From Echinarachnius parma (taxonomy: Eukaryota; Echinodermata; Echinoidea; Clypeasteroida; Echinarachniidae): a stretch of DNA of 64,000 nt. Positions 8,205 through 43,647 of the stretch are shown one piece after another. The DNA is taken from NCBI GenBank assembly GCA_037951105.1, contig JBAMJV010001293.1, positions 124,001 through 188,000 of the forward strand. Reading direction: 5' to 3'. A program made the translations under genes and the position numbers. Every line of letters begins with the position of its first letter. The stretch's first letter is position 1. Under the pieces are notes generated by a model. The model was given only the letters and a program-made list of their open reading frames with translations. It was not told the origin of the DNA and made no database searches.

Positions 8205-8245
8205 CACCCCCCCCCCCCTCCCCTCCGCCCCCCTCCCCCCTCCCT
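8205..8245. repeat. C-rich tract at the satellite edge
   Basis: Run of C with a few T and G, directly abutting the last decayed satellite unit. Many elements in this window also end in or carry long G/C homopolymers. Confidence 0.8.
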
Positions 8246-13600: not shown

Positions 13601-14455
13601 AGATCTGTAGTTTCTTTTGTTGTTTGGAAGAGGGGGGGGGGGGGGGGGGTCTATTAAATAATTCCTCCATTCGGTCAAGAAATAAGACAACTATGGCTCT
13701 TATTTCTACAAGTGACTCAAATTGGCACCGCAAGTGCTCTGGTAAAGTTCTGGACGACTCCCCATTTTGGTTTTGTACACAAAATGTTATTTTATTTCAA
13801 TTTTCTCAAAATATTATGTGGGGGGTGATCTATTAATTAATTCCACCCTGAACCTCCGAACATCAGAAATTTCTGCAAATCTATGTCAGTGGGTAACTGT
13901 ATAGCCTGGTGGTTAGAGCACTGGTCTAGTCTGGCAACCCAGAGGTCTTGGTTTTGATTCCCATTAAAGCCCAATTTTCTTTGCTAAAAAATGATATTAT
14001 TTTGTTTTTACTGTAATATTTATTGAATCTACGTATTCCATACATATTGCACAGTGCTATAAATTTTGACTGTGCACTACGGTAATTATATTAACTCTTT
14101 AATCATGGCTCAACAATAGCGCTACAAAAAAATTGATGTCGGGCAAGTAAAATTTATGGCCTAATTTGATAGTGTTGCGAATTTGCCATTAATGGCAAGT
14201 TGTTAGTCAATTCATTTCATTTCATTTTTACTAAGCCAGTTTCATTGAGATTTTCAGAGAATGTTCTTTTTTATTTTGATAATGTGTACTGAAACATGCC
14301 GTCCATCATGAAAGTAGAACAAAATTGTTTTCTGATAATGTATCTTACAACAGATCGTGTTTGATCGTCCTCACGCTGCAATGTACAGATTTGTCAATCA
14401 GAAATCTAGTAACCTACAGCTGTAATGATAATGATGATGATGATGATGATGATCA

Positions 14456-14517
<62 letters not shown>

Positions 14518-14518
14518 A

Positions 14519-14598
<80 letters not shown>

Positions 14599-26500: not shown

Positions 26501-29500
26501 TATCACTCTTTCCTGATCAAACCTGTGATTATAGATGACAAAGGACATAGAAGAACACAAAATTTTTCAAATTTTGTCAATGTCGGGTTAAAAAATCTGC
26601 TTGCCTGATGGGGCCACCAAAATATGACTTTTATACATTTTTGCTGGCCCAAAGTGCAATTTCACTGGTGCGAGTGTCGAGCCCTGCACAGGGCCTCATG
26701 CAGGGCGACTTACATGTAGTTCCGAATGCCTAAATTTAAAAGAGCCCAGAGTGTAAAATTTCCATCTAGAGTTCAATGCAAACTCAATTTCAAAGTGTTA
26801 TTTTCATGCAGGCGAGCTCGAAAAATAGCCCCCCCAAAATAAATATAAATTTTTCCCTGTTGGTGATTCAAATACATTTTTGAGGTTGTTCACACCATGG
26901 TTTTAATAAAAAAATGAATGGTTTCTTAAACAATATGTTTGTCATTTTCTATGATTATGGTTCAAATGAATACTGAACAATATTGTACGGTAATGTATGT
27001 AATAATAATTATAATAATAACAATATATAAATAGCATTTATAGAGCCACATGTACATTTTAAAAATCTAGGTGCCCTATTCAGAGGCGCATAATATTACC
27101 CATCGTCATCAGGTACATGTATACATGTACATACTACATGTATCTCCCACTTATGGACAAGTTCCTATGGAATCGCTCATGGATGAAGATTTTATTCTAA
27201 TTTTGTTAAATAGCTTGTCCTACCTTATCTGGAAATATAATTATGGCACAAAGTACAATATTTACCTATGATTGTACAATAGCATAGTGTGGGAAGAACT
27301 ACCAGATAACGCAAATATTTGCATCATTTTAATACAATGGCGCAGATCCATTTCCTCTGTATGACAAGTAAACAAGTGGTTGACGCTGGTTTTTTATATA
27401 TTGGTTGACAGTGATTTGGAATGAATGAGAGACACATGCAATGAAATGAAATGGAATGGAATGGAATGGAATGGAATGGAATGGAATGGAATGGAATGGA
27501 ATGGACCGGAACGGAACGAAACGAAACGAAACGAAACGAAACGAAACGAAACGAAACGAAACGAAACGAAACGAAACGAAACGAAACGAAACGAAACGAA
27601 ACGACACGACACGACACGACACGACACGACACGACATGAAATGAAATAATATCTTTTCTCCCTTGACAAGGGTATTGAAGCATTGGAACAGGGCTTGCCA
27701 ATTCTTGTTTTGGACCACCAACATATATATATGGACAGGTTTGAATTTACTTCCAGACAGGACGTTCCACCAAGGGGCAAACAAAGTTGAATTTAGCATA
27801 ATTGCCAACAGTCGCTAGAAGACTGTAAATAATATTACATTTATAATTATTGTTATTAAATATTCAATGTACAATAACATGAGGGCATACACATGCACAC
27901 GTACCTGCTTTGAAATACACACTGTATGTTTTTAATTTCCTCTATAGTCAATTGGGAATCGTGTGATTTGTAACTGTTTTTCTTTCCTTTCCTCTCTTTC
28001 AGATCATTCTTCCGCAGATGAAGGCGCATCCCAGGACCATAGGGGTACAAATGGCAGCAAGGTAAGACCTGCAGTAGAACCTGAAGTAAAAATTAACCCT
28101 CTGAGCGTCAAATTTAACCCTAACCAGGCCGGGTTAATTTGGCTATGCTCTGGCCGGGGGGGGGGTGTGGATTCCACCCCCCCCCCCCGAGATCTCGTCC
28201 GTTGACCGTTGGCCGCCACAAAATTTGGCACGCAGATAGCTTGCAACATAATCTACAAGATTGCGTTGTTATTTTTTTGAAAATAATACATTTTTAATTA
28301 ATTGTACAAATTTATGCATAAATCCCCTTTTTGTCTGTAAATCACTAAATATTGATCAGAATATGCTAATCTTTTGCATAAATATTCTTTATGACTTAAT
28401 TAACAGGTTTTGAACATTAAAAATTGTGACAGCCAAAATTTTCCTTATGAATTTCTTTGTTTTTGGAATTTCTTATGTATTTCTTTGTTTTTTAAACTTT
28501 TGTTTGTTATTGTTTTTTCAATGGAATACATTATTGATCATTATCCAACCATTTTCAGATCAAAATTAAATGTTTGCAGTGATTAGAATGAAAAATAATG
28601 AAGGTTTTGTCTATTCTAGTAAAAAATTAATTTCCATAGGATTTGTACACAAATCACAAAATTTAGCGATTTTCGGGCCGACGCACACTTACAAAACGTC
28701 ACGTGACTTTAGAACGGTATACCTGGTCGTCGCAAATTTGGTCTCAAAAGTTGCGCAAGACTTCAGTGAAAAAACTCATGAAGTCGCGCGGCAATACTGG
28801 CGCGCGTTGCGGAATAATCGCGCGAAAAGTCGAGGGGGGTGGATTCCACCCCCCCCCCCCCCCCCCCCCCCCCCGGCCTGGTTAGGGTTAATCTAAAGAA
28901 TCCACTTGATCATCCAAATCTTCAGACAAGATTATAATCTTAGCTTTAAAATGTTATGGAAATTATATGATTATCAAATAATTGTAAATAGGTGTGTTTA
29001 TATTGGTTGTCTTGTTTCTCTTTGCAGTGCTTAGTCTTACCTGTATAACCTGAACAAGCTCCAGCTATGGGAAGGGGTGCATGTATCAGTACTAAAAAGG
29101 ATGAAAAGCAGTTGAAACAGTTCAATATTTAATCAAGTTGTTTTCGATCTATATTTAGTTGTTTTTTTAAGTGGTTGTATGATTGTATCGTCTCTCTTTA
29201 CAGTGCTTGCCTGTACAACCTGACCAAGCACCAGCTAGGAGAAGGGGTGCATGTATCAGTACTAAGTCAGATGGTCAGTCTCGTATTAGACGCAATGGAG
29301 ACATTCTGCCAACAACAACAGGTACGTTAATTAATTCCATTTCAGTTTATTTTCCTGAGAAAGAAAATTATACAAGATACTTGTAAGATACATGAAACAA
29401 TTTCTTACAACTCAATCTATACATGTATGCCCTTTTCAAATTCTAGGCAAGGGCCCAAAAGTGTTGACATGTTTCAAGCTGATCATTTTTACCATCAATT

Positions 29501-32500
29501 ATTATGTATAATTATGGTGATTGAAATTTGAAATCTGAAGACAAGTTGAAACATGAAAAATTTACACATGTGGTGACCATGGTAACAGGTAACCATGGTA
29601 ACAGGTAACCGTAACCTAATGTGACCTTACACCACTAATCAACCAATAAGTCTGAGAAAATGATTATGCTGAAAAAACATGATTTCTGACGATCAAAATT
29701 TCATAGAAGGTAGATTAAGATACCTTCATTCAGGAAATACAACAATCCTGAATTCCATACTTTTAACCAAATTGGACTATTTCAGCTAATAACAGAGAAA
29801 CTATCACCGCGACATAACGGTCGTTTTGTGGTGTAAGCTCACAAATGTTCATTTCAAGGAAAGGTCCAGAAAAAAATATATACAAGTTACAAGCTAAAAA
29901 TTGATATTTATATCATTGTATTTAAAAATATAATTAAAAATATGACAAGACACTTGAAATATGGAGGTTGTACACATGTGGTTACTTACTATGGCAATAA
30001 ATTACCTAAATTCTGAAATTTAGTGGGATTGTTGTGATATATTGGTTCAGGCCTCTGTCTTCAAATGCAGGTGTTGTTGGTTCGATACTAAATCATGGTA
30101 CATGTCAGGTCATTTTATTTAAATATTTGTGGTTATTAACCAGGGCCCATAATGTTTATATTTCTGTTTATAAAAGTAATAGTTATATGGTTGGAAAAGA
30201 AGAAAAAAATACTGCGATACTTATAGCGGTGCCATAGCAAATTTTTGTTGATGATTTATAAAATGTTATAATATTTTTAAAATATATGAATAATGAATTA
30301 ATAGAAACGTAATTGGCAACAATAGTCACATTTGACTGATTGCCACCAAACAACAACAACAACATGAAAGCCCACTAGCTTAGTTACTTACTTCTATTTT
30401 GGATGACGTGGCTAAGAATTATGCGCAAGATATTTTAGCTGCTAACGAAGGTTAACTTAGTAGGTACATGTACCTTAGGCTTACCCAGTTGACCCTAGTT
30501 GGGGACTCGGAAAACTGTTTGTTGCTCAATAAACTGCACATTTAAAATACACTTAGCAAGGAACTGTAAGCTACATCTAGCAGGGTTTCATGAATATGGG
30601 ACCAGGTATAGTAAATTTGGACCTGGCAGGAATGAATTCTTTTAAATGCTTGATGCGAATTATCAGGACAGCCATACTAAAGTCAGGGTAATATTTATAG
30701 TACTAGTTAATTTGAACATGGAATACTTTGACATTTTACTGTATAAATGCATTAAATTGAGTTTTATTATATCATTAAAATACCACAGTAATACATAACA
30801 AGCCAATAATGTTTTTAAATGTTTTGAATACTTGGAAATTTCACTGTATAAATGCATTAATTTAAGTGTTATCATCATTAAAATACCACAGTAATATGTA
30901 AACAAGGCAATAATGTTTTTGTTATCGATATTATGAAGTATGTTTATGCCAATGTTTTCTTGTGTCCACAGCTCCAGAAGAATGCCCTGCTGACGATGTG
31001 TAGTGACAGGATACTGCAGGAAGTGGTAAGTAACAAGGGGGTGTTACATAAAGATCCTAAGTTGAACTTAACTCTAAAAGTATGGAAAGCCGTTAGTGTA
31101 TTCAAACAAAAATTGTTAAAGTCCTTTTAAAAGGCATAAAATGTTGTTTCAAATCACTAATATTTTTCTATTTTCAAGGAGATTTCATATTCTTCATGTG
31201 AAATTTATAGAATGTCTAAAATACTCGCATTTTTGCTTTCGAATATGTTTTATTTCAAGGCTGCAAATGGCTTACCATACTTTTTAAGTCCAACTTTAAT
31301 AGAGTTAAGTCCAACTTAACTTTGTGAAACACCCCCAAGGAGAACTAGTAACTATGCTTCTGCAAGCGGACAAGTGATAGAGGGTTTATAAAATACAATA
31401 TTATAGGCGAGAAGGCGATGGCCAGAAGTGCCTTAAAAATTGCCAAACTGGCAACTAACGTACAACAAACTAATTTGTATAGTTTCTGAATGTATGGGTC
31501 CTAAATATATCACATATAAAATTAACCCAGAATTCTCCCTCTGGAACATGCTCAAATTACTTTTTTGTTTCTTTTTCACTCTATAGTAATGGTCAGGAAA
31601 CAGCAAAAAAGTTCACGTTGAGGCCTGAAATACTATTACAAAATATTTGTGTAAATTTTACAAACAAACTTGAAAAACACCTTCAATCTGTTGAAAAAGA
31701 AAAAAATTAATTTGTTTTTGTTTTACCTTATTGAAGGTGATTTTCGAGTTTGTTTTTAAATTATACAATATTTCAAATATAAATATATATTTGTGACCGG
31801 CTTTGGCAAAACCAGCAACTTTGACACAAAATGTAAAATTGAGCTTTTGATATGATGTTGTTGTGTGGATTTTTCTCTTTATTTTGAGACAATTTTTATG
31901 TCGATCGGACACAAATTGACAAAGTTATGATTTGTTTTATTATTTTTCTTATTCTGCTAAAACAATGGAGATAATTGAGGTTTAAGTTCAACACTCAGTT
32001 CAAAGTACATGTTATTCTGATATGATATAGCCATTTTCCCGATAATTTTGCATATCATTAGAAACTAGAAAAGATGCTCAACAATATGATACTAAAATGT
32101 CCATTTCGTCCCTGAGGTCAATTTTTGACCTTTTCAGGCCATTTACGCAAAATCGTAAATGCGACGAAGTTCCTGGTTTTGCCAGAGCCGGTCTCATTTA
32201 GTAATATAGTATTTCAGGCATCTTAAAGGTTTCAAAACGTTTAAGGACAACGTTTAAACAGTGAAATAAACAGAATCAGAATAACTCAGCATTAATATCA
32301 ATACATTCACAGCTTGCTCGGTCACTTTGACTTCTACTATCATTTGAACACATACACGTACACTCTGCATGATTCTTCCCCCCCAAAAGACAATGAGCCG
32401 CGCAATTAAATCACTTATCAGCGCCGTTGTACAAATTAAAAAAAACTTAATCATTTATTTGCCCACCACATCTGCCGTGCAGAGATAGCAAGATAAAGGC

Positions 32501-35500: not shown

Positions 35501-38500
35501 CATGCAGGTACAAAATCTTTATCAAAGTTCATCATGTCTTAGGGCAAAATGATTTATATTTTTTGGGGTGGCTCAAAGCAAATTTTTAGTGGCCCTAGGC
35601 CACGGGCCAGTGCCAATTCTAATTGCTGGTCAGATTGTATAATTATAAAATACATCATGTAGATCAAGATATCCACCATTCAGACGTTGTTGCTGGGCAC
35701 CAAGAGAAACATGCAGGTAACTTTTACCAGGGGTCATTTGGCTATGGAAATTTGGACAACAATATTCAATTTCCAGGCCCTCAAACTGTCATGAAAATAT
35801 AAATTGTTTACAATGTCATTTAAAAGTCATGGGATTTTCTTGAAAGGATTGTTTTATTTTGACTTTTTTTCATTCACTTATAATCCAAGATGTTTTATGT
35901 TTTCAAAAGTACAACTTATGCACTCTGTTTGACTTAGAAAGTGCCAGAACCACTAATTACTCTATGCACACATTACAATAAAATCTATAGAGTCCTTGTT
36001 ATGTACATGGTTGATTTTAACAAAAGGGATTAATGATAGGAATCATCATTGAATTTTGTTTACAAAATTCTGTCAAAGTATAAGAAAATTCTGATACTTT
36101 AAAGGGACTTAGTAACATTGTCCAAATCCTCAAAATCCAATTGGAATTCTAGTGGTTCCCTCATACTTTGTTGTACTCTTATTAACAAAAAAAGCATGGG
36201 ACAGGTTTTGGTTTTTCATATTTCTCTTTCGTTAAAAAGATATTTACGATTGAAGTGTTCAGATGTCAAATTATCCAATGGATCATCAGAACCGTGTTCA
36301 AAGTTAGTGCAACGAGTTAGTGAATGTCACTTTGCATTTTTGCTCATTATTCGGCAATATAAAGTCCATTTAACTTGAAATTTTCACACAACACCCAGTG
36401 GACATATCAGATAACAACAATATACATTGTATCAACCACTCATCACTTTTTGCACATGTCAACAAAGTTACTAGATCCCTTTAAACGTCATGGATGGTGA
36501 TTACTCTAGAAAATAGCTGCTCAAAATCATCAAAAGAAGGCTGACATGCGCTCAGTAGACATCACACTCAAGTTCTCTCTGAGTCGCTCTACTCAGGATT
36601 TTCACTGACACAAGACACTTGTCGCTTCAGAATAATAGCCAGTACAACTTAAAAATTATAACTCTTCCCCATAGAAACTGCTCCAAATCGCCAAGCAGAA
36701 GGCTGACATGCGACATGCTCAGGCTGACATGCGACATGCTCAGGCTGACATGCTCAGGTTCACCTTGAAAGCCGACTGTAGCATGACCCTTGATTGTCCC
36801 TGAAAATTACATGTTGTACTCTACTTTTGACTGAACATTAAACAAATTACAAATTATTAATTGCATTTATTCTTTGTAAATTCCTTAAAATCATCCCCCT
36901 AGAAGCTACTTCAAATTGTCAAGCAGAAGGCCAACATGCGCTCGGTGGACATCGCACTCAAGTTCACCCTAAGCGCTCTCTGGAACCTCAATCTCTTGTA
37001 TAGACACTGGACAATAACTAAACACTTTTAGTGATCGTATTTGCTCTGTTCTATACCTCCACCCACCCTAGAAACTGCTTCAGATCGTCAAGCAGAAGGC
37101 TGACATGCGCTCAGTGGACATCACACTCAAGTTCACTCTTAGCGCGCTCTGGAACCTTACCGACGAGTCTCCACCAACCTGTGCAATCTTCTACAATGAG
37201 GGCGGTCTTGACCTCTTCATCCAAATTCTGGAGGTAAAAACAAAATTGGTTATCAGATTTGAACACTTTTGCATAAAACCCGATTGCTCACATGTTGCCG
37301 AACAGGGGCAATTTCCTCGCTCATTTATCAAACGGGTAGATGCGTTTTGATATCAAATAGAACCTGAGCTTGAAATCAATGTAGGGGATTTGCACTGCTA
37401 TGCAAAATATCATATACATAGTAATACATTATACAGTTGTTAACTGGTGGTGGAGGGAAAAGCACGGAATGTTCCACTCCGAGGGATTTAAAATGCTATT
37501 GAGGGAAGAGTAAATAAGTCCCGAGACGTAGTCCAGGGACTTATTTTCTTCACGAAATAGCATTTTAAATCCCGAGGGGAACATTCCATGATTTTCCCGA
37601 CAGCAAAGTTAACAACTGTTTTATCATCTGACTGAATCTTAAATATACACATTCATGCATACGCATTGAAACTGAAATCAGTAAAAAACAACATACATTT
37701 GGTTCTCATTGTGACATCATAATACAATTATCTCTTCTGCAGCGCGTGACATGCGGTTAACAGTGCTTTTTGCCATGTAACAGTTAAAAATGTTACATGG
37801 CAGCTGATGCACTGTATTTTACTAAGTCAGGTGATAAATATGTATGATGCCTTAACATAGCTAACTCCACTCCCTTGGATGCATTCCAGCCAGATTGGAA
37901 ACCCCAGTCATATTCATTGTTTAGTGCCCAATCACAGCTTTTATGTTTGGATCATGAAATGGCAATTGAATATCTTCATTGAAAATGGAATGGATTGTTG
38001 TTGTTTTGTCATTAAGAAAGCAAGTGTGTTGGATGAATATGAAAACGGTAATGGTTCATCTGCTATATTGATTGTATTAAAGGACATTTCATTAATGACA
38101 ATGTTCATAGTGCATTTTGAATAGTATTCTTTGCAGACTATCATAACTGATTCTAAAAAAAACAATTGATGTTTAATTTTCAGACTTTCCCTGATGAGTC
38201 GACTCTCCAAACAAAGGTCCTTGGTCTTATTGTAAGTATTATTTTTTAGAATGAATGGAATATAACAAAACACAATTGTCATAATTGATATAGTTATGGA
38301 TGTTTTGGTAACATGTGTCATTTGTCTTTTATGTGGTTGAGTCTTGTGTGTTTGTTCTAAAATAATGTTGAAGCAGGGATTCTGATAAGGAATAAGACAG
38401 CATCATTGCAATGAAAGCTGTGAACATCATTACGCCCGGCACAGACAGAGCCGACTCGACTGGTTGTCATTCCGATCGGCTCAGTTTTCAGTGCCTCGCG

Positions 38501-41500
38501 ACACACATTTTGCCAGTCGAGAGACAGTCGGATGCCAGTTGGGGCCAATTCAACACGATAAATCTGCTCCGACCGACCGGGCCCAACTCTAGCCTGATTA
38601 AAACCAGTCGGATTGGGGCGAGTCGGCTCTGTCTGCACCGGGCTTTAGATGTCTGCATCGTAATGTGGATTTTCTGTTCAAAGAATGAATATGGTTATGC
38701 GGTTGAGTATTTAGCATTGTAATTTGTTTGTTCATTTGTTTGATTTGTTCCCATAGCAATATTGCAGAAGTGAAGGTTATGAGTTTTTGTTCTATTCTGA
38801 ATAAGTACTAAGTAATAAGAATAAGTAATTTTTTGTCTGCATTGTACTGAGTTTGGTCCTTTTACACATTTAGTATTAAGTCATTTGAGCACCATGGCTA
38901 TGACTTTTCGTATCTATCATTTAATGTGGTTGACAGGGAAAAAATACACGGGGGCGGCCGGCGAATTCGCCCCCGAAATGCCAAAAAGAGCCCCCGAAAA
39001 AAAAAATGTAAAAAAATTGTTTTCTGCATGATCGGAAATCGGCATGGTCGGATTGTGATCGAATGCCGATCCAATGATCACTTACAGTGTTAGAGCTAAA
39101 TAGTAGCCCCTGAAATTTGAAAAAAAAAGAGCCCCCGAAATTTGTAGCCCCCGAAATTGTAAAAGTAGCCCCCGAAAGTTGGAAAAGTAGCCCCCCAAAA
39201 CTTCCATAAAATTAGATAGGGAGCCCCCGAAATAAAAATATATATTTTTCCCCTGGTGGTTGAGTATTAACCCTAAAAAGACTGGGCTATTTTGAACCTT
39301 GAAAAAACTGGGGGGGGGCTAAAAGGGCCCCCCCCTAAGATCTCGGCAACCGAAACTCCGATCGACTCCAAATTTGGCAACGTGATAGATGTCCATAAAT
39401 TCTACAATATTGCGTAGTTGAAAAAAAAATTTAAATTAGAATATGCTAATTAGAGCTAATTAATTATGCAAAAATTGTATTTTTTTGTAATTTTCGTAGT
39501 TTTCTCGGCAATCGAAACTCCAATCAACTCTAAATTTGGCATGGTGATAGATGTCCATGAGCCATACAATATTGCATAGTTAAATTTTTTGTTCTAATTA
39601 TAATATGCTAATTAGAGCTAATTAATTATGCGAAAATTGCATTTCTTATGTATTTCTTTGTTTGTTTTACTTATGTTTTTTATTGTTTTTTCAATGAAAA
39701 TAATTATTGACCATTATTCAACCATTTTTAGCCCAAAATTAAATGATTGCAGTGATTAGAATGAAAAATAATGAAGATTTTGTCTTTTCTAGGAAAAAAT
39801 CAATTTCCATAGGATTTGTACACAAATCACAAAATTTAGCGATTTTCGGACCGACGCTCACTTACAAAAGGTCACGTGACTTTTGAACGGTATACCCGGT
39901 TGTCGCAAATTTGGTCTCAAAAGTTGCGCAAGACTTCAATGAAAAAACTCATGAAGTCGCGCGACAATATCTGCGCGCGTTGCGGAATTATCGCGAAAAT
40001 AGAGGAGGGGGGGGCTAAATCAGCCCCCCCCCAGTCTTTTTAGGGTTAAACATTGCAATTTATTTGTGTGTTTACAGAACAACATCGCAGAAGTGAAGGA
40101 TTTGAGGGACAACCTGAAGAGAGAAGACTTCCTCAAGCACTGCAAGTAAGTCATCTTAGTCAATCAATCAAATAGCTAATCAATGTTTGATCCACGGAAG
40201 CCTGAAAAATGTACCTATATAGACGGGTTGGCAAGAATACCATCAGACAGCGGATTTTGGATTGAGAGGAAATGGACAGATCTGTTTTTTTGTTTGATTT
40301 TGTTATAATAAACAAAAAAGTATTGTTTGGTGTAAGATATTCTGAATTGAATGCAACAATTTTCATAACAACAACAACAACAACATTATGCATGTTTTGT
40401 GGATTTAATTCCACATTTTATTCCCATGTGTTACTCTATTAATTCAGGGAGTAATGAGTACTTTGAAGGGATTTGAAGGCATTAATTTGCCTGACCAACC
40501 TGATGCTTCTTGGCTGTTAGCTTGATTTTTGCTTGGCTTGAAGACAAAAACTATCCGTCTTTGATGTCTTATCACCAGTCATTGCAATAGCTTTCCCAGT
40601 GAGCTGCTATAGGCAGGGCTCCACACTAACCTTTTTTTGTCAGTGGCCGGTCGGGCCAGTGAAATTATTTGTTCCCCTTTTCTGGTGGCCCAGAAGAAAA
40701 ATTTACTGGCCCGAAAATGTTATTTCATTAGTAAACTTTTTACCTTTCAAAATATCACTCTTTCCTGATCAAATCTGTGATAAGATGAAGCATGACATGG
40801 AAGAAATTTTGTTTCTTCTGATTTTGTCATTGTCGGGTTGAAAATCTACTTGCCCGATCAGGCCACCAAAATATGACTTCTATAGTTTTTGCTGGCCCAA
40901 AGTTCAATTTCACTGGCCCTGGGCCAGCGGGCCAGTGCGAGTGTCGAGCCCTGCTATAGGGATCATATCTTCAAGATACAATTATTTGTATCCAACTACC
41001 AGGGGGTGTTTCAGAAAAACATAAATCTTTGTGAAACATTCCATGGGATAACAGTAGCACAACCAAATTAGTGCAATAAGTGCTATATAAATATCAGCTT
41101 TTGTTATTATTATTACTATTTCTTGTGTGATTTGTGTGATTGCAGGCGACTGCTTGAGAACGACCAGATCGAGGTGAGCTACTTTGCGGCAGGGATCGTG
41201 GCGCACCTGCTGAAGGACGGGGAAGAGACGTGGGCTTTCAACCCGGACCTCCGGGAAGACTTTCAGCAGTCACTGGTGAGTATAAAGAATAAATTGAAGA
41301 AATTGAATAAATTGAAATTGAAATTGAAATTGAAAGAATAAATTGAAATTGAAAATTGAATTGAAATTGAGTTTCATTTCCTTTTCTTCATCTCAATTTG
41401 TGCAGTTGTTTAATCACATGGACACTTGAGTTCAGATTTAGAGGGTTTTTTTTAGTTCTGGGTTCCAAGCATGTGGGATTGTTAATTTGTTTGTCTTCTT

Positions 41501-43647
41501 TCGCTTTTCCTCCATTAACATTTTCCACTCACACATCAGGCACTATTCCAATATTTACCTGTAAGTATACGTTCACAGCATGACAGCATCTTGAAGTGGA
41601 AGAACCCAGCATGCGATCTGGTAGCCTCCCAGTCCCTCAGCCTGTTCGTCCCCCTCGAGTGCTATGAGATCCCAATCACTCTCCATAGAGGTTTTTCCGA
41701 TTATTTACCTATGCTTTTATATTTGTACGTTCACAGCATAACAGCATCTTGAAGTGGAAGAACCCAAACGGGTGAGATGGTAGCCTACCGGTCCTTCAGC
41801 CTGTTCGTCCCCCTCAAGTGCTACGAGATCCCAATATCTCCACACACCCACCCAATCTCTCTCCATAGAGGTTTTTCCGATTATTTACCTATGCTTTTAT
41901 ATTTGTACGTTCACAGCATAACAACATCTTGAAGTGGAAGAACCCAGCGGGTGAGATGGTAGCCTACCGGTCCTTCAGCCCGTTCTTCCCCCCCCCCCCC
42001 CCCCTCGTCTCAAGTGCTATGAGATCCCAATATCTCCACACACACACACCCAATCTCTCTCCATAGAGGTTTTTTATTTTTCATTATTTACCTATGCTTT
42101 TATATTTCTACGTTCACAACATAACAGCATCTTGAAGTGGAAGAACCCAGCGGGTGAGATGGTAGCCTACCGGTCCTTCAGCCTGTTTGTCCCCCTCCTC
42201 AAGTGCTATGAGATCCCTGAAGTCCAGCTTTCTTGAGATCCCTTCAACCCCCATCCTCCTCTATGAAGGTTTTATAACAGAAATGCTTCATTATTAACAT
42301 GTATCTGTGAAATAATTGCCACCTTTGATGCTACGTTCACAGCATAACAGTATCTTGAAGTGGAAGAACCCAAACGGGTGAGATGGTAGCCTACTGGTTC
42401 CTCAGTCTCCCTCTAGGAAGGTTTTCAACAAAAATATTCCAGTGTTTACATGTACCAGGGAAATTACTCTTCGTTGATCATATCATGAATATCTTATCAA
42501 ATCATATCTATAATTTATGACTTTCTTTTATCTCCATACGTTCACAGCATAACAGCATCTTGAAGTGGAAGAACCCAGCATGCGATCTGGTAGCCTACCG
42601 GTCCTTCAGCCTGTTCGTCCCCCTCTTCAAGTGCTACGAGATCCCAATATTTCCACACACAATCTCTTTCCATCAAGTTTTTTTGTATTATTTACCTATG
42701 TTTTTATATTTGTACGTTCACAGCATAACAGTATCTTGAAGTGGAAGAACCCAGCGGGTGAGATGGTAGCCTACCGGTCCTTCAGCCCGTTCTTCCCCCT
42801 CCTCAAGTGCTACGAGATCCCTGAGGTCCAGCTCTGGTCTGTCTGGGCCATGCAGCACGTCTGCACCAAGAACGGTAAGCAAGATGCAAATAAAATGTGC
42901 CCCACCCAAATTTTAGTTATAATTTTTAGTTTTCATTTAAGGATAACTTCCAATAGAGCCTTACATTTTAAAAATATTGAAATCTTTCTGGGACGTCCCA
43001 TCGTGAAATGAGTTCTCATGCAAGGAATAACTTAATGGCTCTGTAATTACTTGTAATTTTGACCTAAAAACCTTTCATCCGGCAGTGAGTCGCTTCTGCC
43101 CGACGCTGGTCACTCAAGGGGGTGTGGATCTGCTGAGTGAGATGGTTGCCCAACCTCACCTTCATCTCGCCTCGCAACTGTTGACTGTATAATACATGTA
43201 TAGCTTGTTTGTATATCTGAAATCTAAAAATGTAACTGAAATTTGATGAGATATATTTTGTTCCATTCCTCTTTCAGCGAGTCGCTACTGCCCGATGCTG
43301 GTCACTCAAGGGGGTGTTGATCTTCTGAGTGAGATGGTCGCCCAACCTCATCTTCATCTCGCCTCGCAACTGTCAACTGTATTACATGACTTTGTTTGTA
43401 TATCTGAAATCTAAAAAATGTAACTGAAATTTGATGAGATATATTTTGTTCCATTCCTCTTGCAGCGAGTCGCTACTGCCCGATGCTGGTCACTCAAGGG
43501 GGTGTTGATCTTCTGAGTGAGATGGTCGCCCAACCTCACCTTCATCCCGACGTCCACCGCGTAGCAACCAGCGTCCTGGAGGTTGTCCGGCAGAACCGGA
43601 CGGCCATCGCCGTCGCCAGCCCGTGCGAGATCAAGAGGAGTCGATGA
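9622..43647 (+). CDS. ZYG11B-like substrate receptor of CUL2 ubiquitin ligase (12 coding exons)
   Basis: Joined exons: 9622-10623, 13342-13482, 28003-28061, 29204-29321, 30972-31025, 35088-35246, 37072-37233, 38184-38231, 40078-40145, 41146-41275, 42724-42874, 43466-43647. They give 757 residues, close to the human protein (744 recalled), and align with it from end to end apart from short loops. Residues 1-30 hold a BC/VHL-type box (PLQKLCLDFV) for elongin C/CUL2 binding. Residues about 100-330 are leucine-rich repeats (LRSLNVSNC, LESLDISGT, LMSLDISGR). Residues about 340-740 are ARM-like repeats. W538, D542, N583 and E586 match the recalled human Gly/N-degron pocket W522, D526, N567 and E570, so N-terminal glycine recognition is a reasonable inference. 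ZYG11B beats ZER1 because the VSG, SDRILQ and VAYRSF blocks match it. The start has A at -3, G at +4 and an in-frame stop upstream. All introns are GT-AG. Confidence 0.93.
10853..11256. mobile_element. Inverted-repeat MITE in intron 1
   Basis: Ends are diverged inverted repeats: GAATAGTCTCTGAAAGTTTG on the left and the complement of ACTTTCAGATATTATTC on the right, followed on both arms by the CAAGAAA...CTATGGCTCTTT block. Its core (GTGGACGACTCCCCATCT, TTTTGTACACAAAAT) recurs at 13673-13830, so it is a dispersed family. Confidence 0.65.
11351..11474. mobile_element. Foldback element, ~55-bp arms
   Basis: Arm 1 (GTTCGGAAAGCACAATGCAT, then TGGGGGGGCGAGC) pairs with arm 2 (GCTCGCCCCTCCA, ATGCATTGTGTTTTCCGAAC); outer parts GCGTAAATTT and AATTTACGTC also pair. 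The loop is about 15 nt. It is probably the remains of a small foldback MITE; transcribed within intron 1, it would form a long hairpin. Confidence 0.75.
11680..12379. mobile_element. 700-bp foldback MITE built of AAGCAATTGCTT palindromes
   Basis: Terminal inverted repeats GGGCCGTATGCATAAAAACA and its complement, flanked by ATT on both sides (possible 3-bp target duplication). The 12-bp palindrome AAGCAATTGCTT occurs ten times inside, with further half-sites such as GCTTTTGCTTG. No coding capacity. The GGGCC end and a 3-bp duplication would fit PIF/Harbinger-like elements, but the family is not settled. Confidence 0.8.
12542..12567. repeat. Poly-C run (26 C)
   Basis: Uninterrupted cytosine run in intron 1. 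Confidence 0.95.
12884..13109. mobile_element. T2/Kolobok-like MITE, family 1, short copy
   Basis: Left end TTTAAAAGGGTAGTTCAGT, then TTTGGTA; the right end complements TTTATAGGGGTAGTACAGT, then TTTGGTAAGG. It shares the core CAGAAACGGCTGAAATAT (as complement) with 19550-20093 and 55525-55691. The target duplication is clear only on the left. Confidence 0.7.
13342..13482 (+). CDS. ZYG11B-like exon 2
   Basis: 47 codons, phase 0 at both ends, acceptor TGTCCAG and donor AAG|GTCAGT. It begins VSGKSTEEQVLEALSRYTER, matching human VSGEANETQIAEALKRYSER, and ends PRPDIVK. It starts the ARM-like region. Confidence 0.93.
13629..13650. repeat. Poly-G run
   Basis: About 19 G in a row in intron 2, followed by a second copy of the 10.9-kb MITE core. 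Confidence 0.9.
13673..13830. repeat. Fragment of the 10.9-kb MITE family
   Basis: It matches 10886-11035: CAAGAAATAAGACAACTATG, then GACGACTCCCCATTTTGG and TTTTGTACACAAAATG. The inverted ends are not kept. Confidence 0.65.
13905..13985 (+). repeat. tRNA-derived SINE-like fragment
   Basis: The sequence carries a box-A-like TGGTGGTTAGAGCACTGG and a box-B-like GGTTTTGATTCC at tRNA spacing, with CCAGAGGTCTTGG between them. The acceptor stem does not pair, so it is a SINE head or tRNA pseudogene and not a working tRNA. Confidence 0.5.
14425..14600. repeat. (GAT)n microsatellite
   Basis: About 170 bp of near-perfect GAT triplets with a few interruptions (GATCAAT, GAAAAT). It yields meaningless poly-Met and poly-Ser open frames on the two strands. 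Confidence 0.97.
14954..15198. mobile_element. hAT-like MITE, diverged (TGGCCC family)
   Basis: It starts CAATGCTTAAAATT and ends with the diverged complement AAATTTCAAGCATTG. Inside are many TGGCCC/GGGCCA motifs (CCCAGTCGGGC, GGTGGCCCC, GGCCCCAGGCCAG). Relative of 16033-16274. Confidence 0.6.
15364..15432 (+). other. Candidate 23-codon cassette exon in intron 2
   Basis: A stop-free stretch GEAKDSCLKKEVHMLCQIAR-YMA, 69 bp, phase 0 at both ends like the flanking exons. It is framed by TTTTACATTCAG and a good donor, GTGAGTGAG. It would insert 23 residues between PDIVK and IILPQM. I do not recall such an insert in vertebrate ZYG11B, so a chance pseudo-exon is quite possible. Confidence 0.3.
15433..16032. 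other. Intron 2 segment, nothing recognised
   Basis: A/T-rich intron sequence. Two diffuse stretches, 15519-15560 and 15750-15800, share AAAAAAACTGCA-like pieces but no ends could be defined. Confidence 0.4.
16033..16274. mobile_element. hAT-like MITE, diverged (TGGCCC family)
   Basis: Left end CTAGTGCTCGAAATTAGC; right end TTAATTTCTAGCATTG. Between them are about ten GGCCC/GGGCC motifs, including GCCCGCTGGCCCGGGGCCA and TTGCCCGACTGGGCCA. No clear target duplication remains. Confidence 0.65.
16334..16359. repeat. Poly-C run (26 C)
   Basis: Uninterrupted cytosine run in intron 2. Confidence 0.95.
16960..17690. other. CpG-richer island inside intron 2
   Basis: The base make-up shifts from the surrounding A/T-rich intron to CpG-rich (CCGCGG, GGCGCGCC, CGCCGCATGG). 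On the + strand, 17130-17220 would encode an acidic stretch (FELEDELDEIENSSSKSDED) broken by stops, in the style of a transposase N-terminus. The 126-codon open frame on the other strand has no recognisable domain. Most likely the remains of a DNA transposon; I could not define its ends. Confidence 0.35.
17700..18896. other. Intron 2 segment, nothing recognised
   Basis: Mixed A/T-rich intron sequence with a short CpG-richer patch at 17880-18000. No reliable repeat ends or exons seen. Confidence 0.4.
18897..19062. mobile_element. Foldback MITE with CCGTAAATCTC ends, TA duplication
   Basis: Left CCGTAAATCTCAGTGT and right complement of ACATGGAGATTTACGG, flanked by TA. The arms continue (GTACAAGACGCGTCCCAC and its relative CACAAGACGTACCCCAC; GTGCGTCTTATACATG). 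The TA duplication and the ...AAGACG arms suit a Tc1/mariner-type MITE. Confidence 0.7.
19550..20093. mobile_element. T2/Kolobok-like MITE, family 1, long copy
   Basis: TTAA on both sides. Ends AGGGGTAGTTGAGTTCTGGT and complement of ACCAAAACTCAACTTTCCCT. The core TTTCAGCCGTTTCTGAACCG is shared with 12884-13109 and 55525-55691. The T2 signature TTAAAGGRR is met. No coding capacity. Confidence 0.8.
21026..21156. mobile_element. Near-perfect 130-bp foldback
   Basis: The arm TTTCTTACGCGAGATATCCA, TCCGCCGGGAATT pairs perfectly with AATTCCCGGCGGA, TGGATATCTCGCGTAAGAAA; outer parts (CTTTCCGTGCAG, TATCGGGTCA) pair with TGAGACCCATA and CTGCACGCAAAG. The loop is about 13 nt. It is a young foldback element inside the nest. 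Confidence 0.8.
21245..23191. mobile_element. Inner element of the nest with GTAACTGACGTTAC dyads (~1.95 kb)
   Basis: Ends GGGCAATTCCACG and CGTGGAATTGCCC, flanked by ACAT on both sides. It contains about eleven copies of GTAACTGACGTTAC and several near-copies. The interior is A/T-rich; the longest open frame (22854-23117, 87 codons) has no recognised domain. Non-autonomous, superfamily unknown; a 4-bp duplication is not typical of hAT, piggyBac or mariner. Confidence 0.7.
21257..22824. repeat. Cluster of GTAAC-TGAC-GTTAC dyad motifs
   Basis: The 15-mer GGTAACTGACGTTAC or its last 14 bases occur at 21257, 21434, 21629, 21644, 21853, 21868, 22062, 22422, 22626, 22642 and 22809, with variants ATGGTAATTGATGTTA at about 22584 and 22604. 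GTAAC and GTTAC are reverse complements around TGAC, and each copy holds the CRE-like core TGACGT. Three adjacent pairs are spaced about 15 bp. The DNA between copies is unrelated, so this is not a tandem repeat but a scattered site array. Confidence 0.9.
23937..24770. other. Intron 2 segment, nothing recognised
   Basis: A/T-rich intron with TACATGTA-type short repeats (24160-24190). No exon or element ends could be supported. Confidence 0.4.
24771..25112. mobile_element. hAT-like MITE (CAGGGCTC family), inverted copy
   Basis: Flanked by GTGTATG (24764-24770 and 25113-25119), extendable to 8-9 bp by chance matches. Ends CATGGCTTGATACTCACACT and GTGTGGAGCCCTG. Filled with CTGGCCC/GGGCCAG motifs near both ends. 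Confidence 0.8.
25371..25696. mobile_element. hAT-like MITE (CAGGGCTC family)
   Basis: Ends CATGGCTCCACAC and GAGTGTCGAGCCCTG; opposite in orientation to the previous copy and about 260 bp away, so the two copies form a large inverted pair. No target duplication remains. The right end abuts TAATAATAATAAACTGGATT, a short dispersed motif. Confidence 0.75.
26188..26220. repeat. CA/CCCA simple repeat
   Basis: About 35 bp of CACACG and CACCC units in intron 2. Confidence 0.85.
26366..26686. mobile_element. hAT-like MITE (CAGGGCTC family), intact ends
   Basis: CAGGGCTCCACACTT to GAGTGTCGAGCCCTG, flanked by CACAGGG on both sides (26359-26365, 26687-26693). Subterminal TGGCCC motifs as in its sisters; no coding capacity. 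Confidence 0.85.
26687..27436. other. Intron 2 segment, only minor repeats
   Basis: 26695-26870 resembles 12780-12880 (GAGTTCAATGCAA, TTCATGCAGG) and seems to be an old dispersed repeat; 27000-27050 is AT-rich with ATAATAAT. No exon seen. Confidence 0.4.
27437..27647. repeat. Pentanucleotide array grading through three unit types
   Basis: About ten (ATGGA) units pass through ACCGG/ACGGA intermediates to about 19 (ACGAA) units, then about seven (ACGAC) units, and end ATGAAATGAAAT. The 5-bp period is unbroken, so all six frames give long open frames of NGMEW or NETKR repeats, none of them genes. Confidence 0.96.
28003..28061 (+). CDS. ZYG11B-like exon 3
   Basis: 59 bp reading IILPQMKAHPRTIGVQMAA and two bases of a serine codon. 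Acceptor CTCTCTTTCAG, donor AG|GTAAGA. It follows a 14.5-kb intron and joins exon 2 to give DIVK-IILPQMKAHP, as in human EILK-LVVTGMRNHP. Confidence 0.92.
28118..28887. mobile_element. piggyBac-like MITE, copy A (intron 3)
   Basis: TTAA at 28114-28117 and 28888-28891 enclose 16-bp perfect inverted ends CCCTAACCAGGCCGGG. Next to each end is a hairpin of G-run, TGGATTCCA and C-run. The interior (from ATTTCTTTGTTTT to GCGCGTTGCGGAATAATCGC) is closely similar to copy B at 39271-40045, although the outermost bases differ. No coding capacity. Confidence 0.85.
29028..29094 (+). pseudogene. Decayed copy of exon 4
   Basis: After TTTCTCTTTGCAG it repeats exon 4 (TGTATAACCTGAACAAGCTC; GAAGGGGTGCATGTATCAGT; ACTA). 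The third codon is a stop and the second half of the exon with its donor is missing, so it cannot be used. Confidence 0.85.
29204..29321 (+). CDS. ZYG11B-like exon 4
   Basis: The split serine codon is completed, then ACLYNLTKHQLGEGVHVSVL and on to DAMETFCQQQQ. Acceptor TCTTTACAG, donor CAG|GTACGT, phase 0 out. A decayed copy sits 176 bp upstream (29028-29094). Confidence 0.93.
29322..30020. other. Intron 4 segment
   Basis: A/T-rich intron. 29570-29630 holds a short GGTAACAGGTAACCATGG repeat that is partly palindromic. Nothing else recognised. Confidence 0.45.
30022..30110 (+). repeat. tRNA-derived SINE-like fragment
   Basis: It shows ATATTGGTTCAGGCCTCTG (box-A-like) and GTTGGTTCGATAC (box B) at tRNA spacing. 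Second such head in the gene; the acceptor stem is not paired. Confidence 0.45.
30695..30925. repeat. Tandem duplication, ~115 bp, before exon 5
   Basis: Two direct copies sharing TTTACTGTATAAATGCATTA, then ATTAAAATACCACAGTAATA and CAATAATGTTTTT, at about 80-85% identity. Confidence 0.8.
30972..31025 (+). CDS. ZYG11B-like exon 5
   Basis: 18 codons, LQKNALLTMCSDRILQEV, against human LQKNCLLSLCSDRILQDV. Acceptor TGTCCACAG, donor GTG|GTAAGT, phase 0 at both ends. Confidence 0.93.
31037..31336. mobile_element. MITE with GGGGGTGTT ends (intron 5)
   Basis: Left GGGGGTGTTACATAAAGAT, right complement of TTTGTGAAACACCCC, flanked by CAA. Inside, CTAAGTTGAACTTAACTC faces AGAGTTAAGTCCAACTTAAC. Ends of this kind with a 3-bp duplication suit PIF/Harbinger-like MITEs. 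A lone end-like GGGGGTGTTTCAGAAA lies at 41003. Confidence 0.7.
31792..32196. mobile_element. MITE with TGTGACCGGCT ends, long form
   Basis: Ends TGTGACCGGCTTTGGCAAAA and complement of TTTTGCCAGAGCCGGTCTCA. Related to the shorter copies at 34614-34864 and 44943-45169 through the ends only. Confidence 0.7.
32197..32949. other. Intron 5 segment, nothing recognised
   Basis: A/T-rich intron sequence without supported exons or repeat ends. Confidence 0.4.
32950..33012 (+). other. Candidate 21-codon cassette exon in intron 5
   Basis: GDIRKIKTHFIPLLPDESNN-Q, stop-free, phase 0, with acceptor CATATTTAG and donor CAA|GTAAGA. The reading LPDESNNQVRKV resembles exon 8 (FPDESTLQTKVLG), so it may be a displaced, worn exon copy. 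Weak polypyrimidine tract; low confidence. Confidence 0.22.
33310..34235. repeat. Three tandem copies of a ~210-bp intron 5 unit
   Basis: Copies at 33310-33480, 33527-33682 and 34090-34235 share TTAGGAAGTGG, GATTACCAGAA, GTTGATAGGCAATTAGGG and a TTTCATTTCTGCTTACCC-like end. The second copy is interrupted by a T2-like MITE (33686-34058); the first keeps the uninterrupted site. Confidence 0.8.
33686..34058. mobile_element. T2/Kolobok-like MITE, family 2
   Basis: TTAA on both sides (33682-33685, 34059-34062); ends AGGGTACCACCACCC and complement of GCATGGTGGTCCCCT. 373 bp, non-coding. Confidence 0.8.
34495..34541 (+). pseudogene. Decayed 5' copy of exon 6
   Basis: After TTCTTGTGTGCAG: AACTTTGATTGTTATTGTGC, ATCCAAGATGCTGATGAATT, GTCTCTC. 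It would read NFDCYCASKMLMNCLS, then similarity ends with no donor. Confidence 0.85.
34614..34864. mobile_element. MITE with TGTGACYGGMTATAGC ends, copy 1
   Basis: Ends TTGTGACTGGATATAGCAAA and complement of GGGTTTTGCTATATCCGCTC. About 75-80% identical throughout to 44943-45169 (CTTGTCGGTAAAAAT, CACAAGCTTTCATTT, GATATGATTGTTT). It lies between two decayed exon 6 copies. Confidence 0.8.
34893..34942 (+). pseudogene. Second decayed copy of exon 6
   Basis: It keeps TTGACCGTTATTGTCTCTTT, GTGTTTGTTGACCCATTGAT, GACCAG, that is exon 6 with an internal deletion of the ASKMVMD part. No donor. Confidence 0.75.
35088..35246 (+). CDS. ZYG11B-like exon 6
   Basis: 53 codons from NFDRYRASKMVMDCLFVFDD to TSLLGTKRNMQ, matching human NRFEAAKLVMQWL and onward. 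Acceptor TTTTTTTCGTGCAG, donor CAG|GTAACT. Decayed copies lie on both sides: two partial copies upstream and three copies of its last ~50 bp downstream. Confidence 0.93.
35286..35337 (+). pseudogene. 3' fragment of exon 6, copy 1
   Basis: Direct copy of the last ~50 bp of exon 6 with its donor (CAAGATATCCACCATTCAGA to ATGCAG|GTATGA). It has no acceptor and is preceded by TAGAT instead of the exon's own bases. Confidence 0.9.
35456..35517 (+). pseudogene. 3' fragment of exon 6, copy 2
   Basis: Same fragment as at 35286, preceded by the same TCATGTAGAT, about 170 bp further on, with donor GTACAA. The intervening DNA includes a worn TGGCCC-type MITE piece. Confidence 0.9.
35665..35716 (+). pseudogene. 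3' fragment of exon 6, copy 3
   Basis: Same fragment again, preceded by CATCATGTAGAT; it keeps a good donor (GTAACT) followed by an intron start like that of the true exon (ACCAGGGGTCAT). Confidence 0.9.
36103..36480. mobile_element. T2/Kolobok-like MITE, family 3, copy 1
   Basis: TTAA on both sides; ends AGGGACTTAGTAACATTGTC and complement of CAAAGTTACTAGATCCCT. Exactly 378 bp, like its sister at 58214-58591, to which it is inverted. The 86-codon open frame inside is accidental. Confidence 0.88.
36510..36598 (+). pseudogene. Decayed copy 1 of exon 7
   Basis: After ACTCTAG it follows exon 7 (AAGAAGGCTGACATGCGCTC, AGTAGACATCACACTCAAGT) with a frameshift near the start and loses similarity at CTCTCTGAGTCGC. 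Confidence 0.85.
36675..36775 (+). pseudogene. Decayed copy 2 of exon 7 with internal 21-bp slippage
   Basis: After CCCCATAG: AAACTGCTCCAAATCGCCAA, GCAGAAGGCTGACATGCG, then two extra units of ACATGCTCAGGCTGACATGCG type before TTCACCTTGAAAGC. It shows slippage inside an exon copy. Confidence 0.85.
36903..36995 (+). pseudogene. Decayed copy 3 of exon 7
   Basis: The best kept copy. After CCCCTAG it reads KLLQIVKQKANMRSVDIALK and FTLSALWNL, then departs just before the TDESP motif. No donor, so it lacks half of the degron pocket exon. Confidence 0.88.
37072..37233 (+). CDS. ZYG11B-like exon 7 (degron-pocket exon)
   Basis: 54 codons from KLLQIVKQKADMRSVDITLK to FIQILE. It contains LSALWNLTDESP, whose W538 and D542 match the recalled human pocket residues W522 and D526. 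Acceptor CACCCTAG, donor GAG|GTAAAA, phase 0. Three broken copies precede it. Confidence 0.93.
37431..37622. mobile_element. Foldback MITE (ACAGTTGTTAACT ends) in intron 7
   Basis: Left ACAGTTGTTAACTGG and right AAGTTAACAACTGT. The arms also pair through GGAATGTTCC, GAGGGATTTAAAATGCTATT and AATAAGTCCC. About 190 bp with a very short loop. Confidence 0.8.
38184..38231 (+). CDS. ZYG11B-like exon 8
   Basis: 16 codons, TFPDESTLQTKVLGLI, against human SFPTESSIQQKVLGLL. Acceptor AATTTTCAG, donor ATT|GTAAGT, phase 0 at both ends. Confidence 0.9.
38433..38644. mobile_element. MITE with GCCCGG-CAGACAGAGCCGACTCG ends (intron 8)
   Basis: Left CGCCCGGCACAGACAGAGCC, right complement of GGCTCTGTCTGCACCGGGC; the arms continue GACTCGACTGG / CCAGTCGGATTGGGGCGAGTC. 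The 57.8-kb element has a similar GCCCGGTCA start. Confidence 0.75.
38757..38786 (+). pseudogene. Decayed 5' copy of exon 9
   Basis: After CCCATAG: CAATATTGCAGAAGTGAAGG, matching exon 9 ACAACATCGCAGAAGTGAAGG. The upstream intron (GGTTGAGTATTTAGCATTG, TAATTTGTTTGT) is a copy of the true exon's upstream region without the MITE now found there. Confidence 0.8.
39271..40045. mobile_element. piggyBac-like MITE, copy B (intron 8)
   Basis: TTAA at 39267-39270 and 40046-40049; perfect 16-bp ends CCCTAAAAAGACTGGG. G-run/C-run hairpins lie inside both ends (CTAAAAGGGCCC, CTAAATCAGCCC). The interior contains a tandem repeat of a ~190-bp part (ATCGACTCCAAATTTGGCA / ATCAACTCTAAATTTGGCA) and a block shared with copy A (GTACACAAATCACAAAATTT, GTCACGTGACTTT). 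Confidence 0.88.
40078..40145 (+). CDS. ZYG11B-like exon 9
   Basis: NNIAEVKDLRDNLKREDFLK followed by HC and two bases of a lysine codon. N583 and E586 in NNIAE match recalled human pocket residues N567 and E570. Acceptor GTGTTTACAG, donor AA|GTAAGT. A TTAA-flanked MITE ends only 32 bp upstream, just outside the acceptor tract. Confidence 0.92.
40614..40953. mobile_element. hAT-like MITE (CAGGGCTC family) in intron 9
   Basis: CAGGGCTCCACACTAAC to GAGTGTCGAGCCCTG, flanked by CTATAGG (40607-40613, 40954-40960), or GCTATAGG if the element ends one base earlier. Subterminal GGCCC motifs as in the intron 2 copies. Confidence 0.88.
41146..41275 (+). CDS. ZYG11B-like exon 10
   Basis: It completes the lysine codon and reads RLLENDQIEVSYFAAGIVAH through DFQQSL. 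EVSYFAAGIVAHL is nearly identical to human EVSYFAAGIIAHL. Acceptor GTGATTGCAG, donor CTG|GTGAGT. Confidence 0.94.
41579..41680 (+). pseudogene. Tandem copy 1 of exon 11
   Basis: Acceptor TTCACAG intact; reads HDSILKWKNPACDLVASQSL, SLFVPLECYEIP, then diverges. Lacks the QLWSVWAMQHVC end and donor. Confidence 0.88.
41737..41835 (+). pseudogene. Tandem copy 2 of exon 11
   Basis: Acceptor intact; HNSILKWKNPNG, then an inserted base gives a stop. No donor. Confidence 0.9.
41917..42030 (+). pseudogene. Tandem copy 3 of exon 11 with C-run expansion
   Basis: Reads HNNILKWKNPAGEMVAYRSF, SPFFP, then the proline/leucine codons have expanded into a run of about 16 C. It ends near GAGATCCCAA without a donor. 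Confidence 0.9.
42120..42235 (+). pseudogene. Tandem copy 4 of exon 11
   Basis: The acceptor AG has become AA. The body is close to the true exon up to GAGATCCCTGAAGTCCAGCT, then a stop. Confidence 0.88.
42343..42410 (+). pseudogene. Tandem copy 5 of exon 11 (short)
   Basis: Acceptor intact; same inserted base as copy 2 (AACCCAAACGGGTGA), then truncated after TACTGGTTCCTCAG. Confidence 0.85.
42548..42650 (+). pseudogene. Tandem copy 6 of exon 11
   Basis: Acceptor intact; reads HNSILKWKNPACDLVAYRSF, SLFVPLFKCYEIP, open but without the end of the exon or a donor. Shares the ACDL variant with copy 1, so copies have been exchanged or re-duplicated. Confidence 0.88.
42724..42874 (+). CDS. ZYG11B-like exon 11
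   Basis: HNSILKWKNPAGEMVAYRSF, then SPFFPLLKCYEIPEVQLWSV and WAMQHVCTKN plus one base. Human has ILKWPTPECEMVAYRSFNPF. It is the last and only complete member of a series of seven tandem copies, and the only one with the VWAMQHVC end and a donor (AACG|GTAAGC). Confidence 0.94.
43086..43192 (+). pseudogene. Upstream copy 12a of the last exon (possible alternative terminus)
   Basis: After CATCCGGCAG it reads (V)SRFCPTLVTQGGVDLLSEM, VAQPHLHLASQLLTV and TAA, in frame with exon 11. It lacks the HPDVHRVATSVLE end. Splicing to it would give a protein about 25 residues shorter with a new tail. Confidence 0.6.
43278..43414 (+). pseudogene. Upstream copy 12b of the last exon (possible alternative terminus)
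   Basis: After CTCTTTCAG it reads (A)SRYCPMLVTQGGVDLLSEM, VAQPHLHLASQLSTVLHDFV, CISEI and TAA, in frame with exon 11. It lies 192 bp after 12a and 188 bp before the full exon 12; all three share their upstream intron. Confidence 0.6.
43466..43647 (+). CDS. ZYG11B-like exon 12 (last coding exon)
   Basis: It reads ASRYCPMLVTQGGVDLLSEM through HPDVHRVATSVLEVVRQNRT to EIKRSR and TGA at 43645-43647. The length and the PHVQQIAVAILDSLEK-like end agree with human. Acceptor TCTTGCAG. It is the third of three tandem copies; the first two lack the HPDVHRVATSVLE part. Confidence 0.93.

Follow-up and report, generated by a model that had tools for sequence, protein, structure and literature searches.

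The closest described systems are the amphioxus 'mirages', which have been reported for the globin genes BflGb6 and BflGb9 and for Adh3 (PMC3087553). In BflGb6, the 3' end of an intron together with the 5' part of exon 2 is tandemly duplicated in units of 150-160 bp that are 81-100% identical, and in BflGb9 a 3' exon boundary is duplicated (157 bp). According to the same report, AG/GT is kept in many of the units, the number of units differs between haplotypes (6 versus 3), and RT-PCR suggests that splicing is undisturbed (PMC3087553). Concerted evolution within an array and, for Adh3, somatic instability belong to the same description (PMC3087553). The lancelet PGBD5 gene is described as having imperfect tandem repeats over its splice sites, a finding that was backed by re-examined sequencing data (PMC3902484). 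In yeast deficient in FEN1, small inverted triplications with flanking duplications of 148 bp have been described. Their breakpoints map to the midpoints of nucleosomes and to Okazaki termini, and the mutant has more tandem duplications as well (PMC13334657). A preprint reports that unprocessed 3' flaps can give duplications (PMC12633238).

The locus described here lies in a stretch of 64,000 nucleotides from the echinoid Echinarachnius parma (contig JBAMJV010001293.1, positions 124,001 to 188,000), which is called the window below. On the mitochondrial contig of the same genome, COX1 is followed by tRNA-Arg, an open frame read as nad4L, and COX2 (nad4L and COX2 were recognised by eye). The 17 ATA codons of COX1 make good sense as isoleucine, and its one AAA codon is aligned with an asparagine of the solved structure; both the gene order and the code suggest an echinoderm. 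Six exons of a ZYG11B-like gene in this window are accompanied by broken copies of themselves. Such copies are direct local duplications of a favoured length with one end in the exon, and they are found in four unrelated kinds of gene.

The ZYG11B-like gene and its partial exon copies

The leucine-rich and armadillo parts of the gene product match human ZYG11B (PDB 9bid) with an E-value of 9e-99, and its C-terminal half matches PDB 7yc2 with an E-value of 2e-47. Exons 2-12, when joined, form one open frame. When the same genome was searched at the DNA level, the 3' half of the gene was not found a second time. The segment 8437-12043, which includes exon 1, is 99.86% identical to contig C2500 as far as the end of C2500, and left of 8437 there is no comparable match between C2500 and the window contig. 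The features of the gene are as follows.

9622..43647, + strand: ZYG11B-like gene, 12 coding exons, donor of exon 1 uncertain
29028..29095, + strand: partial copy of exon 4 with acceptor, ~170 bp upstream of the exon
29204..29321, + strand: exon 4
34485..34538, + strand: copy of the 5' part of exon 6 that retains the acceptor
34893..34942, + strand: another upstream partial copy of exon 6, with an internal deletion (34906-34942 is the part that aligns)
35088..35246, + strand: exon 6
35286..35337, + strand: 3' fragment of exon 6 with GT donor
35456..35507, + strand: 3' fragment of exon 6 with GT donor
35665..35716, + strand: 3' fragment of exon 6 with GT donor
36510..36590, + strand: partial copy of exon 7
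36675..36712, + strand: partial copy of exon 7 that merges into a 21-bp tandem repeat derived from the copy
36903..36988, + strand: partial copy of exon 7
37072..37233, + strand: exon 7
38757..38783, + strand: short copy of the start of exon 9, ~1.3 kb upstream, the weakest of all
40078..40145, + strand: exon 9
41579..42645, + strand: six-copy array of exon 11, adjacent spacing 158-223 bp (copies at 41579-41673, 41737-41832, 41917-42028, 42120-42229, 42343-42405 and 42548-42645)
42724..42874, + strand: exon 11
43087..43169, + strand: partial copy of exon 12
43278..43361, + strand: partial copy of exon 12 with ~98% identity to it
43466..43647, + strand: exon 12 with the stop codon

The original prediction had assigned 1, 5, 3, 1, 6 and 2 partial copies to exons 4, 6, 7, 9, 11 and 12, respectively, and all of these direct copies were recovered by self-comparison and by exon-by-exon alignment. 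It was also right in describing a repeated local duplication, mainly of acceptor-side exon segments, that leaves the gene whole, and in placing three fragments downstream of exon 6; at a score cut of 44, the window has 14 copies upstream of their exons and 3 downstream. The claim that the copies lack donors holds for the acceptor-side copies, which end inside the exon without the exon's donor, but not for the three downstream exon-6 fragments, which keep GT. BLAST E-values of copies against their exons range from 7e-6 (34906-34942) to 1e-112 (exon 12). The exon 9 copy has no BLAST match, and its local alignment score of 43 falls just under the cut; in a control with 40 exons and shuffled flanks, the best score was 22.

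By eye, the seven exon-11 units (41579-42874) can be sorted by the short variants that they share; the succession is A B C C B A C, which could reflect conversion or the duplication of blocks. The same gene also has tandem duplications made of intron sequence alone and roughly comparable in size, at 30721-30920 (105 bp), 33379-34178 and 39341-39663 (162 bp).

Several other repeats are present in the window. The 21-bp repeat at 36700-36753 has arisen from exon-derived sequence within the second exon-7 copy. The intron duplication at 33379-34178 is a family of three copies; two of these are preceded by an acceptor-like run ending in TTTAG, and the family does not match any recognised exon of the ZYG11B-like gene. 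Dispersed repeats, ~83-89% alike, lie in the introns (28468-28857 resembles 39641-40032, and 24770-26686 resembles 40613-40954), and runs of 26 C are found at 12542, 16334 and 28849. Two large arrays of a satellite with a unit of ~194-197 bp, again the size of a nucleosome, occupy 1-8208 with 17.6 and 23.6 copies; they are oppositely oriented and face each other, the switch being near 3503.

Recurrence in other gene families

The pattern had been thought to be restricted to one gene. This does not stand, as partial copies were found at 30 of 60 deduplicated exons from three unrelated families of the same 1.2-Gb genome, and the gene of the window is therefore typical. The chaperonin loci were the best 30 of 68 matches, the myosin loci the best 30 of 84, and the adaptin loci 18 of 51 matches, on three contigs picked as compact; exon ends in these families are the ends of profile matches rather than exact splice sites. 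The set of 60 exons leaves aside L068 and 12 near-identical or similar loci (L008, L009, L015, L031, L035, L038, L040, L047, L051, L057, L058 and L064). Before deduplication, 31 of the 60 chaperonin and myosin loci had a partial copy within 1.5 kb. Among the adaptin exons, a partial copy accompanies 4/7 in L067, 4/6 in its near-allele L068 and 1/5 in L069. At the same score cut, the window gene has copies at 5 of its 12 exons, exon 9 being just under the cut.

In an adaptin intron, an exon-derived copy has become a 70-bp minisatellite, which lies upstream, in gene orientation, of the exon at 2750 in L067 and at 2494 in L068. In this one pair of loci, which are taken as allelic from their ~95% identity, the 70-bp array is ~200 bp shorter in L068 than in L067. 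A 151-bp tandem array, related copies of which adjoin exons of unrelated genes, is present in L017, L022, L039 and L054.

A fourth family, PF00133, was inspected by eye (40 rows) and gave a clear extra overlapping partial match near an exon on four contigs. Three of these matches are downstream and one is upstream, so that an upstream bias finds no support there. Among the matches listed, no echinoderm report of such exon copies was found in titles and abstract starts, a scope mostly outside the subscription literature.

Spacing and unit length

The copies follow each other and their exons at preferred distances. In the window gene, 14 of 17 spacings are 150-225 bp, and among the 45 adjacent spacings in the deduplicated chaperonins, myosins and adaptins 35 lie between 125 and 225 bp. 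The nearest shifts in the three families, taken with no choice by spacing, fall between 120 and 230 bp in 27 of 33 cases, with a median of 198. Intron-intron pairs peak in the same range (36/82 at 125-225 bp), these 82 pairs being counted before deduplication and with 151-bp arrays and copy-copy pairs included.

For the 25 nearest upstream copies that were chosen for a spacing of 120-240, the unit is 187 +/- 22 bp, and the exonic part of the same pairs varies by +/- 28 bp. The longer the exonic part, the shorter is the intronic part (r = -0.64), which is to be compared with a mean r of -0.26 in a null with the same spacing selection (P = 0.006). The observed spread is 23 bp, compared with 29 in the spacing-selected null (P = 0.027). 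Because the unit is tight and its intron and exon parts compensate each other, the data fit the duplication of a block of near-fixed length, the end of which falls at varying positions in the exon.

The short left edges of the copies had first suggested copying exactly at the splice junction. This was ruled out because some units carry homologous intron (L022, L032, L044, L054 and window exon 12), in addition to the compensation of the intron and exon parts. The intron part of the unit is recognisable in 8 of 26 upstream copies (8/25 in a second count), the acceptors in the 26-copy analysis having been chosen automatically and being wrong in a few rows.

Two other ideas about the arrays were rejected. 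The stretch between copies might have been an inverted copy of nearby DNA; inverted scores exceeded the shuffled maximum in 2 of 25 cases (L016, 26 versus 25; window exon 12, 38 versus 31), and in both the direct homology was much stronger (scores of 58 and 135, respectively). That the copy nearest to the exon is the youngest holds for 6/8 arrays in the three families (2 more were tied) and for 3/5 in the window, which is not significant.

Upstream excess and comparison of exons with introns

The 45 copies at the 30 exons of the three families comprise 38 upstream and 7 downstream of the exon. Counted by exon, upstream copies occur at 26 and downstream copies at 7 (P = 0.0013), an exon with copies on both sides entering both counts; a 700-bp window combined with different masking gives 24 versus 9. 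The upstream excess may have either of two causes: splicing may suffer more from downstream copies, which are on the donor side, or the duplications may arise with a directional preference.

A local copy within 700 bp is found at a score of at least 44 for 30/60 exons versus 87/389 intron segments of 180 bp, and at a score of at least 100 for 18/60 exons versus 26/389 segments. Segments more than 600 bp from an exon give 15/61 at score 44 and 4/61 at score 100. In these intron rates each intron pair can be counted twice, and some exon-derived pairs are included, the exons of the flanks being partly annotated. A simple simulation gave the detectability of exon copies relative to intron copies as 0.74-1.5 fold, and because this gain is so small, slower decay alone seems too weak to account for the exon excess. 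The decay of real introns may be more rapid than in the simulation, since the intron part is unrecognisable in 18/26 (17/25) of the upstream copies. Survivorship thus probably explains a part of the exon excess.

Origin of the copies

By combining these observations, it is possible to propose how the copies arose. With a probability of roughly 0.6, they are the remains of a frequent, genome-wide, head-to-tail tandem duplication of blocks of ~187 bp, the length of a nucleosome. A duplication with its breakpoints in the exon and in the upstream intron would place a truncated exon copy that includes an acceptor in front of the intact exon, which has an acceptor of its own. When the other breakpoint lies downstream, a donor-side fragment would result. 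Both outcomes would leave a whole mRNA possible, and duplications within an exon or across a whole exon are presumably purged. The copies would decay afterwards, and those adjoining an exon would probably be recognisable for longer because selection holds one partner still. Some of the arrays would grow further as minisatellites.

The length of the unit might be set by an error in lagging-strand (Okazaki-fragment) synthesis or in unequal exchange, and unequal exchange could also expand the arrays. The 187-bp unit and the breaks inside exons would fit an Okazaki-type error on nucleosomes positioned by exons. Three observations stand against this explanation in its simple form. The 38-to-7 upstream excess is not predicted by simple random tandem duplication, the excess of exons over intron segments is larger than the simulated gain in detection, and the intron part is recognisable in fewer copies (8/26) than would be expected if a simple tandem block decayed neutrally.

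A second, doubtful explanation is an exon-targeted hotspot. Breakpoints would prefer exons, one possible site being the dyad of a nucleosome positioned by the exon, at which lagging-strand fragments terminate, and both the association with exons and the upstream excess would then be mutational in origin and not the result of survivorship. The exon excess, the upstream bias and the nucleosome-like unit are all in its favour, as is the location of the inverted-triplication breakpoints described in yeast lacking FEN1 (PMC13334657). It is opposed by the intron-intron duplications, which have the same favoured spacing, and by the intron parts, which decay faster than modelled, so that introns are under-counted.

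It is quite improbable that the copies are functional, that is, alternative or regulatory decoy exons under selection. AG is kept in 13 of the 14 window copies that reach the exon start (judged by eye; the fourth exon-11 copy has AA), and in one exon-7 copy 9 of the 11 differences from the exon are at third codon positions. The acceptor-side copies of the window, however, end inside the exon without a donor, and some have one-base indels. The differences between 18 window copies and their living exons amount to 33/422, 22/421 and 48/414 at codon positions 1, 2 and 3, respectively, which would be near to the expectation for copies that evolve freely and neutrally when the exon next to them is constrained and has mostly silent changes; one outlier among 18 copies is not striking. 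Furthermore, half of the sampled unrelated exons adjoin such copies. The 'decoy acceptors' of the original prediction are best taken as a description of the sequence.

Assembly error is unlikely because the arrays are seen again in several genes, on many contigs and in both members of near-allelic pairs. Alleles placed in tandem by the assembler, the form that such an error would take, are a very improbable source, even though the assembly has many near-allelic contig pairs and a few window copies (those downstream of exon 6 and the second one of exon 12) are 94-98% identical to the exon. The identity of copies to exons is 77-94%, mostly below that of near-allelic contigs, which is mostly 92-99%; moreover, the copies are incomplete, keep to a preferred spacing and are present in both members of contig pairs. 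The least probable explanation, RNA-mediated copying with insertion of processed fragments nearby, would account for left edges that are often close to the acceptor, but it is contradicted by the dozens of intron bases in several units, by the regular spacing and by the minus-strand matches of the window, which fall on flanks and not on exons.

Significance

If half of the exons adjoin broken copies of themselves, constrained exons could serve as anchors for counting and dating small tandem duplications, and the exon-anchored duplications would outlast the faded intron copies as a record. Three questions would become testable: whether the length of the duplications is tied to nucleosomes or to lagging-strand fragments, how the splicing machinery passes over so many spare acceptors, and whether intron gain draws on the arrays, as has been proposed for the amphioxus globins. 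For gene annotators, such copies invite false exons.

A wider generalisation is tentative and, on balance, unlikely to hold in full: mirage formation might be a genome-wide and ongoing mutational process in deuterostomes beyond the cephalochordates. Nucleosome-length duplications with breakpoints preferentially in exons would then be preserved next to about half of the exons as fossils that can be dated, and the spare acceptors would form a permanent reserve for new introns and exons.

Comparison with known systems

The copies resemble the amphioxus mirages as these are described (PMC3087553) in being tandem repeats across an intron/exon boundary beside a living exon. This is clear for 8/26 of the units here; in the others the intron part is either short or can no longer be made out. 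As in amphioxus, duplication affects acceptor-side as well as donor-side boundaries, and exon 6 of the window has both. A length difference between haplotypes is likewise shared, on the strength here of the one near-allelic pair L067/L068. The two systems differ in scale, the amphioxus report describing a handful of cephalochordate genes as compared with 30/60 exons of three families in an echinoderm. They differ also in the upstream excess and in the unit of 187 +/- 22 bp (25 chosen pairs) observed here. The imperfect tandem repeats over splice sites described for PGBD5 are a further likeness, but their units are 60 and 108 bp and they concern one gene (PMC3902484).

Duplications related to Okazaki fragments are similarly short, about one nucleosome, which may be compared with 187 +/- 22 bp here. 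Unlike the present copies, the described cases come from mutant yeast or inhibitor-treated cells (PMC13334657, PMC12633238), and the events that were sized and mapped are inverted triplications, whereas the copies here are direct. Internal gene duplication and intron creation, as cited in the amphioxus report (PMC3087553), also involve tandem duplication with splice sites inside genes; they differ in that they concern gained introns. As far as can be seen from these sources, what is new here is the phylum and the scale, together with the upstream excess and the measured length of the unit.
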